In this document: in pieces, positions 7,154 to 21,719 of the stretch
Layout: each line of letters begins with the position of its first letter
Numbering within the stretch: the first letter of the stretch is position 1
From: Bacillota bacterium
GTDB lineage: Bacteria > Bacillota > Sulfobacillia > Sulfobacillales > Sulfobacillaceae
DNA length: 36,510 bases
Direction: 5' to 3'
NCBI GenBank assembly: GCA_021797825.1
Contig: JAJZZA010000032.1
Location: 1 to 36,510, forward strand
Position numbers and translations under genes: made by a program
Notes under the pieces: generated by a model
Databases searched by the model: none
Seen by the model: only the letters and a program-made list of their open reading frames with translations
Told to the model about the DNA's origin: nothing

Positions 7154-7522
7154 AGTGGGCTGTCGTCGTGTGCATCTGGGGGTCGAGAGCGCATTAGCCC
7201 AAGGCCGTTCTTCGGAAGGATCCCGTTCCGGCTAGTACGGCAGTAGTGTAGGTAGAATGAGGCGTCAATGGCGGATGCAATGAGGCAAAGTGGACCAGTG
7301 GAGAGTGGTGTGGTTGGCCAATATCCTTGGCGTCTGCTGGAATAGAATAGAGAGCAATGTCCTGTCTATCCCTTGTATGACTGGGCAGACGGACCGGGTC
7401 ACCGGCATGCGTGGCGAGATGCCACTGGGCTTGAGTCGGAGCTGCGCCAAATGCCAACCCTGTGGGGCCAAATAGTACCGTTGATAGATTGGGTTCATCA
7501 CCTTTACCCGCCGTGGAACGGC
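7154..7522. other. Unassigned spacer between GNAT gene and intron 3' end
   Basis: About 370 nt without a recognisable gene. On the minus strand an open frame continues through it from the intron boundary, but the translation matches nothing I know. It could be the 3' exon flank of the group II intron, i.e. the disrupted target locus. Confidence 0.3.
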
Positions 7523-7551
7523 ATAGCGGGCGGCGGTGAGCGCCCCTGCCA

Positions 7552-7586
7552 CACCACACGGCATGCGGGTCCGCACTGGGCGGTTC
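7552..7586 (-). ncRNA. Group II intron domain V (intron 2)
   Basis: The minus strand reads GAACCGCCCAGTGCGGACCC, then the paired 3' half ending GTGTGGTG: a 35-nt hairpin like the GAACCGCC...GGTGGTG type of bacterial domain V, with the TGCG/CGCA tip stem. It begins 13 nt after the maturase stop codon, the usual arrangement. Confidence 0.65.
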
Positions 7587-7598
7587 GAGCAGTTGAGG

Positions 7599-8162
7599 TC
7601 ATGCGAGTCTGGTCTGGGGAAGCCAGCCAAGATCATCGAAGTATTTGACCGTCAGGATACGATTCCACCCTGCTTCGCTGTGCCCCCACCAACTGCCGGT
7701 TCCCCCGGCACTCAAGGCCGCCAACTCGTGGGCGACGGACACGGCTATACGGCGTCCCCGTTCGCCACTGTTTGAGTTGAAAGGCCCGCAGCCGGTGCCG
7801 AATCCATGAATCTGGGGCTTTGAACACCGTAGGCGTCTATGCAAGCCGGAAATACGCTTTCCAATCCGGCAGGTATTCCCGCATGTGTGCAGCAACCTGC
7901 GCCATGCTCGTGCCCCCGACACGTTTGGTGATGGCCCCGGATGCGCGGTTTGAACGTGTCAATAGCCTTGGGAGCCACAGCGGTCTTCACCCTGTCCCCC
8001 GACCATCGCCCGCGGCAATAGCCGAGGAACTTCCGTCCGAACATCGAACCCACTTCGGTTTTCTTCTTGTTCACGCGCAGATGCAACCGCTCATACATCT
8101 TGCGCCTCCAGCCCAGAACTGGTTCACCTGCCCTCTCGCTGCGAACCGACACGTTGCAGCGA
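7599..8162 (-). pseudogene. Group II intron reverse transcriptase/maturase, C-terminal remnant
   Basis: The minus strand encodes the part of an LtrA-like protein after the YADD motif, in more than one frame. From 8152: SVRSERAGEPVLGWRRKMYE, LRVNKKKTEVGS, FGRKFLGYCRG, then AVAPKAIDTFKPRIR, matching the thumb and start of the X domain. Frameshifts follow, and the end is recovered as FMDSAPAAGL/RLRAFQLKQWRTG and WWGHSEAGWNRILTVKYFDD, the usual C-terminus 'WW..S....N..Lt..yFd.lG'. The catalytic palm with YADD is missing: homology stops exactly where the IS630-type element begins at 8163. Non-functional. Confidence 0.75.
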
Positions 8163-8403
8163 TACTCCTCACGTGTGACAATTGACGATTTAAGAGGCCG
8201 ATTTCAAGACTTGGAATTTGAGTGTCAATAGGGTGTCCACGATGGGAATCGAAATCCGGGTCATATGCCCGTCCCCCTCGTCGTCGATTGGAGATTTCCA
8301 TGTCCCCATCGCGCGGAATCGAGCAGGAACCTTTGGTCCAGCCCTGGAAAGCACCCCGCAAGCATTGGCAAGGAAAATCCTCAAAATTTATCCGCGAGGA
8401 GTA
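8163..8403. mobile_element. IS630-type miniature element, copy 1 (241 bp)
   Basis: The ends are TACTCCTCACG (8163-8173) and CGCGAGGAGTA (8393-8403), inverted repeats ending in the TA that IS630/Tc1-mariner elements duplicate. Next to the left end the minus strand encodes TLLTLKFQVLKSAS, the last residues of an IS630-family transposase. The inner 41 nt at the right end match copy 2 (27542-27996) at about 35 positions. The transposase body is missing, so this is a non-autonomous, MITE-like derivative. It interrupts the maturase of intron 2. Confidence 0.7.
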
Positions 8404-9269
8404 GAGTAGACCCGGGGAATTGCGCCCCGAGTCGAGTAGTGCCCACAGGCGCCATGGTGTAGGCGAACTGTCGCTCCGTTTGCCGCCCCTTTCGGGTGGC
8501 GGTGCCTCAGTCCGTCACCCTGCCCGGTTTCCTGCGGGCCCGCTAAAATTGCGCCCAGTCGGTTTACCCGAGTACGGCTTCAAACGACCACTCCGCCCGG
8601 AATCTACGTGGGCTGCCACAGCTTAAAGGCACCCGCCCATGCCCCTTGGCCCGTCCACGTGGTTCCGACCTACGGGTCACCCTGCGAGGCCGCGGTCCTC
8701 GGGCCGAAGCCCTGGCCACGACGGCGGGCACCCTGGGTCGTCCATGGGCCCTTTCCTCGCCGGCGGTTGTCGTGTCCGTCGGGTCCCCGCTGCCACGGCC
8801 TGATCCGCCGGGCTTGGAGCCACGCTGCGTTTTCGCGGTCTGCGCTTATACGCCCCGCCTGGCCCTTCGCAGGTGCTCCGGGCGAGCCCCGAGTCCTTCC
8901 TGCTTTGCCAAGATATCCTCGCGTCCATGCTGTCTCCCTTACGCCGGCAGGGCGATTCGGTGCAGTCCCCTCGCTTCCCGAATCGTACCCGTCTTCGCCC
9001 GAGAGACCGAGGCTCGACCCCTTCATCAGTCCCGTTAGTCAGATTTGGCGGGGTTTTGTTTTCGACGCGGCAGACCTCACTTCAGGCTACGGCCTGGACG
9101 TTGGCTAGCCCCGCTGTCTGACCTCGCCGGGCGGCGACCCGGAACCTAATCTTCGCGGCTTTCACCAGATGGGTCACCCCAGTCCGGTCCGCGATTCGCT
9201 ACGCGGCCGAATCGGCAGTTGCCACGGTCGGACTTGCACCGGCTGTATATCCTAGGTTACAGGCTGCAC
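8404..9269 (-). ncRNA. Presumed 5' RNA domains of group II intron 2
   Basis: About 850 nt with strong GC content and no credible protein; the long frames on both strands are compositional. On the minus strand GGTGCAAGTCCG lies near 9240, and short GAAA-containing hairpins (for example CCGCCACCCGAAAGGGGCGG near 8500) resemble structured intron RNA. A possible maturase ATG lies at 8455. Domain-by-domain folding was not possible here. Confidence 0.4.
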
Positions 9270-9278
9270 GTCTCTCCC

Positions 9279-9313
9279 AAAACCAGACGTGAACCTCTCG
9301 GCTCATCCCGCTC
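9279..9313 (-). ncRNA. Group II intron domain V (intron 1)
   Basis: The minus strand reads GAGCGGGATGAGCC, a GAGA tetraloop, then GGTTCA, a CG bulge and TCTGGTTTT. This has the standard form: the AGC catalytic triad near the 5' end facing GTT near the 3' end, a GNRA loop and a two-nucleotide bulge. It lies 2 nt after the stop codon of a maturase C-terminal remnant. Confidence 0.7.
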
Positions 9314-9315
9314 CC

Positions 9316-9480
9316 CTATCTCGCCGCTGGCCGCATCCTTTGCCAGTGTGTGAACAGCTGGGGTTCGCGTTGACCCACCCCGACCAGTCCGTGTTCCGCC
9401 CGGCGGGGGTGATGCTCCAGCTGCTTGTCCTTCCGTGTGGCCCAGCGGACCTTTACTCCGCGGTGAGCAATGCGACCCTC
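9316..9480 (-). pseudogene. Second group II intron maturase, C-terminal tail
   Basis: About 54 residues ending at TAG (9318-9316). The translation contains VKVRWATRKDKQLEHHPRRA and QREPQLFTHW, matching the extreme C-terminus of another group II maturase type (pattern 'vRWA.rKyKrl......a...l..va.rePqLFaHW'). Everything upstream is lost; the piece abuts transposase debris near 9480-9490. This maturase type differs from that of intron 2. Confidence 0.65.
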
Positions 9481-9484
9481 CAGG

Positions 9485-10037
9485 CCATGCGGCAAACCAC
9501 GCCGTCACCTGCTCCCACCCCAGGCCCTGGGCATCGACGCCCCGGCAGGCTTCTTGCCCTAGTCCGCATCCGTATCGCGACGTCTGTCGGGCGTCGCCTC
9601 GTCCGGGCGATGCTTCGCGAACGATCCGATCGCTTTGCTATCGACGGCCAACCGTTCTGCAAAGTCCGGCAGAACCTCCTATAAATCGTCGATGACCCGG
9701 TGCATCACCATTTCGAGGTCATCGAGGTGTTCCAGGATGCGTGCAAGAGTCGCGCATAGGCCCACGCCGAGGGGGCGGAGCCGCCCAGTCCGACCATCTC
9801 CCGCCGTTGGCCATGGCGGCCCCGCTCCCGGCGCCAGCTCTCAATGCTCGGATGTTGATAGACAACGCCCGCCAACCTGGAACTTTACATCGCCCGTACG
9901 GGATAGTCGTTCCGAGCGCGTCCGCGGACGCACTCGAAGATGCGCATCAGCGGTTCATCGGGAATCGTTTCGAGCACCAACTGCAAGCGGCCCAGGTCGC
10001 CCGGCGGCTGTAGGTCTTCCCACGAAAAGAACTTCGG
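9485..10037 (-). pseudogene. DDE transposase (IS4/IS5-like with DUF772-type N-terminus), decayed
   Basis: Read in several frames, the minus strand gives FFSWEDLQPPGDLGRLQLVL and MRIFECVRGRARNDYPVRAM (N-terminal DUF772-like region), a stop, LAGVVYQHPSIESWRRE, SAPSAWAYARLLH, a frameshift, LEHLDDLEMVMHRVIDDL, another stop, then LAVDSKAIGSFAKHRPDEAT and RRDTDADWG, and in a third frame GVDAQGLGWEQVTAWF. VDSKAI would carry the first catalytic aspartate. There are at least two stops and two frameshifts, and the C-terminal catalytic part is missing where the intron 1 tail begins. Confidence 0.7.
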
Positions 10038-10341
10038 TTATGGTTTAATCGCCATACGGGCACGCTCGTTTGAAATTGATGGGTGGTTACCTCAATTTTT
10101 CCCGAGGAGACCCGTTTTTTGTTGTTGCCATACGGTTTTTTGACCGTTCACCTTCGGCGGGGTCACATTCCGCACAGCGCGACTGCCGCCCCCTCCCATC
10201 GCGCATGCCTTCCTCGAGTTCTGGGGTAAAGTTTCTTAGCGGGCATCCTCCACGCCAGTCATAGTGCAGTCTCTAGAGCAGCGCAAACGCCCAAAATGAT
10301 AAGGCCCTCGATCCTTCGCGCTTCGGCCCGTTGAATTCGCG
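10038..10341. other. Intergenic debris downstream of preA
   Basis: 304 nt between the preA stop and the transposase remnant. The minus strand holds a possible scrap of the same transposase's N-terminus (QKTVWQQQKTGLL) interrupted by stops. No gene, promoter or clear terminator was seen. Confidence 0.35.
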
Positions 10342-20000: not shown

Positions 20001-21719
20001 TCAAAAGAGAAAATAACGCTGCGCCAGGCTGACCGTTTTAGCCGCTCGCGAGGTGATCAGATGGCCGTCCGCCCGCACCTCGTACGTTTCCGGATCGACG
20101 GTGATGGCCATGATGGTGTCGTTTAACCGCATTTCTTTTTTTCCAATCGCTCGGCATCCCGTCACCGGGTACAACCCCCGCGTCAACCCCAGCCGTCCGC
20201 CGACCCCCGCGTCCAGCGCCGCTTGTGACACAAACGTCCAGCTTAAAGCGGCCACGGCGCCGCCCATCGCGCCGAACATCGGCCGCATGAGAACCGGTTG
20301 GCAGGTCGGCACCGAGGCATTAGGATCGCCCATGGCCGCCGCCGCAATCATTCCCCCCTTTAGCACCAAACTCGGCGCCACCCCGAAAAACGCCGGGTTC
20401 CACAACACCAGGTCGGCCCACTTGCCCACTTCAATCGATCCCACCAGATCCGCCACTCCGTGGGTAATGGCGGGATTGATGGTGTACTTGGCCACATACC
20501 GCCGGATTCGCAGATTGTCGTGAGGGCCGCTCTCCTCTGGTAACCGGCCGCGTTCCCGCTTCATTTTGTCCGCCGTCTGCCAAGTCCGGCTGATCACTTC
20601 GCCAATGCGACCCATTGCCTGTGAATCCGACGAAATCATGGACAAGACACCCAAATCGTGTAAAACGTCTTCCGCGGCAATCGTTTCCCCCCGGATCCGG
20701 GAGTCGGCAAACGCCACATCCTCCGGCAAATCCGGATCCAGGTGGTGGCAAACCATTAGCATATCCAGATGCTCGTCCAGGGTGTTGACCGTATAGGGGC
20801 GAGTCGGATTGGTTGACGAGGGCAATACGAACGGCTCTCCCGCCACGCGCAAGATATCCGGGGCGTGCCCCCCGCCCGCGCCTTCCGTATGGTAGGTGTG
20901 GATGGTGCGCCCGCCAATGGCCTCCAGGGTCCGTTCCACAAATCCCGCTTCGTTCAGGGTATCGGTGTGAATTGTGACTTGCACGTCCATCGCGTCGGCC
21001 ACCTTAAGGCAGGTGTCGATGGCCGCCGGCGTGGATCCCCAGTCTTCGTGCAATTTGAGTCCAATCGCGCCTGCTCGCACCTGCTCGATCAGGGGTTCCG
21101 GAAACGACGCGTTGCCCTTGCCGGTCAACCCGACATTAACCGGCAACGCTTCCGCCGCCTGCAACATGCGCGCCAGGTTCCAGGGGCCAGGGGTGGCAGT
21201 GGTGGCATTGGTGCCGGTCGCCGGACCGGTGCCGCCCCCAATTAGCGTGGTAATGCCGGCCATCAACGCATGATGGGCTAATTGCGCGGAGATAAAATGG
21301 ACATGCGAATCAATCCCGCCAGCAGTCAACAGCATGCCTTCGCCGGCAATGATTTCCGTCCCCGGCCCAATCACCAAACCGGGGTCGACGGAAGGCATGA
21401 TGTCCGGGTTGCCAGCTTTGCCGATGGCGGCGATGCGTCCATCCTTGACGCCCACGTCAGCTTTCACGATGCCCCACCAATCGATAATCACCGCATTGGT
21501 GATGACCACATCCGGGGCACCGTCGGCCGATGTCATCCACCCGGCCTGACCCATGCCGTCGCGAATCACTTTGCCGCCGCCAAACACGGCTTCGTCCCCG
21601 GCCAGGGTGTGGTCGGCTTGCACCTCCGCCCATAATTCCGTATCGGCCAAACGGATGCGGTCGCCCAGGCTCGGGCCGTACAGATTGGCGTAGCGTCGTC
21701 GGCTAATCTGCCTGGTCAT
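20001..21719 (-). CDS. ureC: Urease alpha subunit UreC
   Basis: 572 residues from the ATG at 21719, overlapping the ureB stop by 4 nt and with GGAG 8 nt upstream. UreC hydrolyses urea to ammonia and carbamate at a dinickel centre. Nickel ligands are present: H139 and H141 in [10 protein letters not shown], the carbamylated lysine K222 and H224 in [11 protein letters not shown], plus HTDTLNE and [15 protein letters not shown]. The mobile-flap histidines lie in MVCHHL, and the last Ni-binding aspartate is in [14 protein letters not shown]. Length and all catalytic residues are normal, so the enzyme should be active once matured by UreDEFG. Dihydropyrimidinase, a related amidohydrolase, is excluded by these motifs. 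Confidence 0.96.

Follow-up and report, generated by a model that had tools for sequence, protein, structure and literature searches.

A mobile-element stack from the family of Sulfobacillus acidophilus probably holds a bacterial twintron whose inner ORF-less group II intron is one of a family spread across phyla and marked by an atypical D5

We have analysed the window, a stretch of 36,510 nucleotides that is the entire contig C13 of a 3.6-Mb draft genome from the family which includes Sulfobacillus acidophilus, and find on its minus strand, from about 10290 to 7519, a stack of mobile elements that very probably contains a genuine bacterial twintron. The inner intron, here termed E, belongs to a family of ORF-less group II introns with an atypical D5 which extends across phyla and is probably mobilised in trans. 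Read along the minus strand, the order is an IS1182-type remnant, intron 1 truncated at its 5' end, E, the rest of intron 1 with its D6 and 3' end, an IS630 derivative and a third intron, as follows.

9493-10287, minus: IS1182-type (DUF772/DDE_Tnp_1) transposase gene in remnant form, with 76% identity to C11 of this genome across 803 nt
9458-9498, plus: inverted short piece of the intron 1 RT gene, 88% identical to L094 476-516 in opposite orientation
9270-9451, minus: 5' segment of intron 1, maturase C-terminus and D5 (D5 about 9316-9279), from RF00029, RF04357 and homologues
9270-9276, minus: IBS1 of E within intron 1, GAGAGAC, 7/7 Watson-Crick pairs with the EBS1 of E
8431-9269, minus: E, read as a complete ORF-less group II intron of 839 nt, GTGCAGCC...CTACTCGAC, delimited by the empty site in L059/L094 and by copies with the same ends in the family
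9082-9245, minus: part of D1 of E, RF02003 (group-II-D1D4-4), 56 bits (gathering score 49)
9001-9007, minus: EBS1 of E, GTCTCTC, complementary to IBS1
8545-8581, minus: atypical D5 of E, its 3' strand mutated in the window copy; covariance model R1, 54.5 bits at 8591-8525
8431-8544, minus: J5/6 and D6 of E, with a bulged A near the 3' end and an extra A in the window copy
8404-8430, minus: remainder of intron 1, D6 and 3' end, joined directly to the D5 segment in L059/L094
8163-8403, minus: IS630-type internal-deletion derivative, 241 bp, with TA and CTCCTC at both ends (compared with L032, L043 and C55)
7519-8162, minus: 3' part of a third group II intron, RT/maturase tail and D5 (7587-7554), unrelated to E

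A sequence-only reading of this DNA had assigned a maturase tail and a D5 to intron 1, and both are present at 9451-9270. The D5 is matched by RF00029 at 33 bits, below the gathering score, and by the RF04357 D5 model at 9316-9277, and homologues of the intron occur in S. acidophilus as well as in further genomes of its family (L059/L094, L061, L062/L097 and L083). G003 is taken as S. acidophilus, its match coordinates being those of the DSM 10332 plasmid. In another of these genomes (G028, L059/L094), the homologue of 9451-9270 directly abuts that of 8433-8404, giving an empty-site joint which reads GGGAGAGAC|TCGGGG, and the window has exactly GTGCAG...CTACTCGAC between the two halves. The insertion point of E is the D5-D6 linker of intron 1. 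Further empty counterparts are found on comparing L083 and L095 with the S. acidophilus intron (L097) and L077 with L081; the empty sites cover four E copies, L095 on its left side only. Insertion is exact and without target-site duplication (empty sites L059/L094, L097 and L081). As E is inserted exactly into a joint that is left empty in a relative, E is the younger of the two introns, and by this sequence comparison it is nested inside intron 1 in a twintron.

The same reading had placed the possible 5' end of a second intron within 10 nt of the intron 1 D5, and this end is indeed found at 9269, followed by the RF02003 match at 9245-9082 (56 bits); the differing D5 types which it described for the two introns are likewise borne out. 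Its suggestion of a twintron-like insertion beside D5 that would date the order of events is upheld by the exact empty site, but the anatomy it gave the second intron is not. That intron was thought to run on to the maturase at 8159-7519, whereas comparison with relatives ends it at 8431, and what was read as one intron is two different ones, E (9269-8431) and the third intron. Elsewhere, in tandem arrays at L081, L094 and L097, the 3' end of an RT-encoding intron nearly abuts the 5' end of the next intron.

E has the parts expected of a group II intron. RF02003 matches its D1; the window copy scores 56 bits, and intact copies score 56-80 bits. Full copies in the host family have identical ends, GUGCA...AC, one base off the 5' GUGYG consensus, while copies from other phyla end NYGCAG...GRY, their 5' end being placed by the profile and the EBS1 match only. 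EBS1 is the variable loop which precedes GGGCGAAG, and in the window this loop, GTCTCTC (9007-9001), is complementary at 7/7 positions to GAGAGAC, the seven bases that precede the inserted E. When EBS1 and IBS1 were swapped among 14 host-family copies, own pairings gave a summed score of 208 against 151±10 for swapped pairings (0 of 100000 swaps as high), and among 14 copies from other genomes 221 against 157±11 (again 0 of 100000), figures which are not strict probabilities because related copies share loops. The match is poor in a few copies (L086a, L087 and L131).

D6 of E consists of a 9-bp helix and a GAG/CUC pairing, between which one A bulges out 7 nt from the 3' end, in line with the 7-8 nt expected of a group II D6. 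D6 arms pair at 8.6 of 9 positions with their own partners and at 6.4±0.19 when swapped, the 3' arm in this comparison being located by sequence only; separate counts of D6 pairs are biased because their 3' arms were chosen partly by complementarity. Both D5 and D6 are found unguided by RNAfold and by RNAalifold, D6 with z -3.0 to -4.0 in RNAfold. Combined, these features indicate at the level of sequence that E is a complete group II intron and lacks any protein-coding gene. The idea that E has no D5 at all, which arose from the Rfam failures described below, was dropped, since a D5-like hairpin stands directly 5' of the covarying D6. A further candidate, that E is part of a TnpB transposon or IStron, came from L080 and L088, which lie at TnpB genes, and was rejected as the majority of copies have exact ends at other kinds of place. 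In the window the copy of E is altered: the 3' strand of its D5 has GGGCGC in place of GUACGG, GAG is replaced by GCG at the base of D6 and there is an extra A near the end of D6. Judged from these changes, the window copy is probably inactive, although its EBS1 still matches the target.

In known D5s an AGC triad faces GUU. The D5 of E is the hairpin that immediately precedes D6; its 3' strand carries a bulge of 2 nt, and AGC is kept in nearly all copies but without the pairing to GUU; the opposite strand reads GG-AA-UUUU, which amounts to an AA insertion or to G-A and A-A mismatches. These letters were fixed by the exact-pattern search, and they hold too in host-family copies that were found otherwise. 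The distal helix covaries (G-C/C-G and G-C/A-U), as does the lower helix, with U-A in 28 and G-C in 8 members of a relaxed set which was aligned to the structure and takes in canonical and sister D5s. RF00029, the Rfam D5/D6 model, had 0 matches in the E copies tested, at E<=0.05 or E<=10, a test of the model and not a defining chemical property. Standard searches miss the E family because its catalytic hairpin is unusual. A GAAAA pentaloop was considered as a trait of E only and rejected, since the D5s of intron X and L222 carry GAAAA too.

A sister subtype without AGC was also observed (L186, L187, L188, L189, L182 and L164). Its D5 reads CAAAACCGG, CAGAACCGG or similar, and in place of the AGC type it has a hairpin of the form CAAAACCGGAC...GUCCGGGAUUGUAG and similar. 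Two of its members, L186 and L164, align with the greater part of the E profile.

The exact D5 pattern of E was found in 53 stretches from a collection of 84,980 species. Their record titles name Acidobacteria, Deltaproteobacteria, Verrucomicrobia, Bacillota, Omnitrophota, Gemmatimonas, Scalindua and others, and include two archaeal MAGs and the cultured Edaphobacter modestus, of which strain DSM 18101 carries E (L106); these taxon labels are record titles, mostly of MAGs, in which contamination is possible. The same pattern found nothing in the viral contigs searched. D5 model matches (E<=0.001) occur in 13 of 34 host-family genomes, and the weakest of these matches may be canonical D5s. In the loci examined no RT was found upstream of an E-type D5, RTs being present only downstream, within the host introns, and no RT remnant was seen within E. 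A group II RT match was obtained in 19 of 20 E-bearing genomes; G540 has none, and the match in G551 is weak. Within the host family, E lies at three places in intron 1, in intron X, at one Y-type intron site and at TnpB genes. It is often nested in other mobile elements, with flanks that are unrelated between copies. One and the same Y-type intron site is occupied in L078, L086 and C99 (L025), where the outer flanks differ; either this site was targeted repeatedly or a Y::E twintron moved as a unit.

This distribution bears on the best of the alternatives, in which E is a dead or passive relic of RF02003-class introns that has lost its ORF and the function of its D5 and has spread with its host introns. 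The decay of the window copy and of C63 would fit such a relic, as would the atypical D5, and the occupied Y-type site in L078, L086 and C99 could have been inherited as a unit. We nevertheless consider this reading unlikely, as E copies occupy many different targets, each matched by the EBS1 of that copy, with unrelated flanks in different copies, and as D5 and D6 are conserved and covary across phyla.

Most likely, E reverse-spliced into the D5-D6 linker of an older, RT-encoding intron 1, guided by base pairing between EBS1 and the target. RNA of the E family probably splices, and the maturase/RT encoded by co-resident group II introns probably mobilises it in trans; the driver would most likely be an intron of the related RF02003 class. 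RT-encoding introns with an RF02003 D1 and very similar D5 and D6 exist, for example L222, and at the ends of contigs the genome of the window carries copies of the RF02003 type, to which the RT-encoding L193 is related. Such introns, of the L222 and L193 type, are the best candidate parents and drivers of E, with which they share the class of D1 but from which they differ in encoding an RT. In L222 and E alike, the core of D5 is GCCGUAUUCGGGAAAACCGAACGUACGG and D6 ends in GCGCC...CUCUACUC; the 3' strand of the L222 D5 reads GG-UUUG, as in known D5s, whereas that of E reads GG-AA-UUUU. L222 (G545:C265) also contains, at about 1850-1935 of the reverse complement, two tandem identical D5 hairpins before D6.

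The closest described parallel is provided by the TeI3 introns and TeI3-TeI4 twintrons of Thermosynechococcus elongatus, for which mobilisation in trans by the protein of another intron has been shown (PMC2882425). On the TeI3 model, an IEP would be supplied in trans for both splicing and reverse splicing of E, trans-mobilisation being demonstrated for TeI3 and inferred for E. TeI3 and E are alike in being ORF-less, in having many targets with good EBS/IBS pairing and in being nested in an RT-encoding intron (PMC2882425). They differ in that TeI3 has a local parent, a recognisable ORF deletion and a range of one genome (PMC2882425), whereas E is found across phyla and has an atypical D5. Nested introns of Methanosarcina acetivorans resemble E in that group II introns have inserted into each other repeatedly, a comparison by description only and drawn from excerpts of that paper, in which an E-type D5 and an ORF-less inner family are unmentioned (PMC4424553).

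Circularly permuted group II RNAs are also similar to E in some respects, being about 900 nt long and ORF-less with an unusual base at AGC, an unpaired A (PMC8637638). It is very improbable that E is one of them, since its domains run D1...D5-D6 and not D5-D6-D1-D4, the empty sites define D1-D6 as the inserted unit and no upstream D5-D6 copy is seen. Splice motifs differ as well, GGGCG/NU in the permuted RNAs compared to GUGCAG/AC in E, and no mobility is known for the former (PMC8637638). The E profile gave no significant match on pTT8 or within bases 1-50000 of pPNAP05, a range outside which the permuted RNA of pPNAP05 may lie.

According to the prediction of a 2015 review, few ORF-less introns should have escaped notice unless they have a D5 unlike the known ones, and published surveys relied on the RF00029 D5 model (PMC8919778; PMC12350094). 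The E family, widespread, ORF-less and missed by RF00029, fits the exception made in that review. The family supplies natural variation in the catalytic triad, together with a natural system for how bacterial introns turn non-autonomous and dependent on a shared splicing protein. Spliceosomal introns and non-LTR retrotransposons are regarded as descendants of group II introns. We regard as evenly balanced the broader proposal that bacteria and some archaea harbour a large, overlooked class of non-autonomous group II introns with an altered strand opposite the AGC triad, spliced and moved in trans and often nested, in which the AGC-less sister may borrow a D5. A prior description of the E family may exist elsewhere, because the literature covered consists of open-licence papers.

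The 241-bp element separates the 3' end of intron 1 from the RT of the third intron. An IS630-type element had been reported in the sequence-only reading as interrupting the maturase of the second intron; it is present at 8403-8163, with TA and CTCCTC ends, but no such interruption exists. Full-length relatives are L032 and L043, HTH_23 and DDE_3 being detected in L032, and the TA target, shared terminal repeats and internal deletion identify it as an IS630-derived miniature element. A second copy, at C55:1-95, has 100% identity to it over 95 bp that span the deletion joint, which indicates that the deleted form has itself been repeated. The different flanks, intron 1 on one side and the RT of the third intron on the other, could reflect recombination between two copies.

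The third intron is 72% identical to C24:1598-2264 and to Polaromonas plasmid introns (NC_007950; ltrA), and its RT has a weak TIGR04416 match. Rfam searching at E<=5 finds no D5 at 7586-7552, where one had been claimed, and this D5 is therefore placed by homology to C24 and Polaromonas only. That one ordinary RT-encoding intron spans 9269-7519 beside intron 1, its maturase split by the 241-bp element, is scarcely credible despite the expected order of 5' end, maturase tail and D5 on one strand, as 8430-8404 continues intron 1 and the L059/L094 empty site refutes the reading, the C24 and Polaromonas introns match 8159-7519 with no similarity to 9269-8406, and E copies elsewhere share the 3' end without an RT.

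At the other end of the stack, the decayed DDE transposase that had been recognised from the letters is present at 10287-9493, 76% identical over 803 nt to C11. The C11 ORF matches PF01609 and PF05598, and NF033551 (IS1182) below the cut-off; a Pfam search of the protein fragments of the window gave 0 matches. The transposase C-terminus was to be sought below 7523, and blastn found none there. The junction of transposase and intron 1, at 9498-9451, shows a 6-nt microhomology, GGTTTG. The first 41-46 nt of the 5'-truncated intron 1 are inverted, with 152 nt missing at the inversion joint, an arrangement which resembles the 'twin priming' of LINE-1; we know of no such case in a bacterial group II intron. 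As this is one decayed locus only, a simple inversion is also possible. Elsewhere in the window, RF02514 (5' ureB sRNA) matches with 81 bits at 21269-21548 of the plus strand, antisense to a 588-aa ORF, a match which perhaps reflects nothing other than conserved urease coding sequence.
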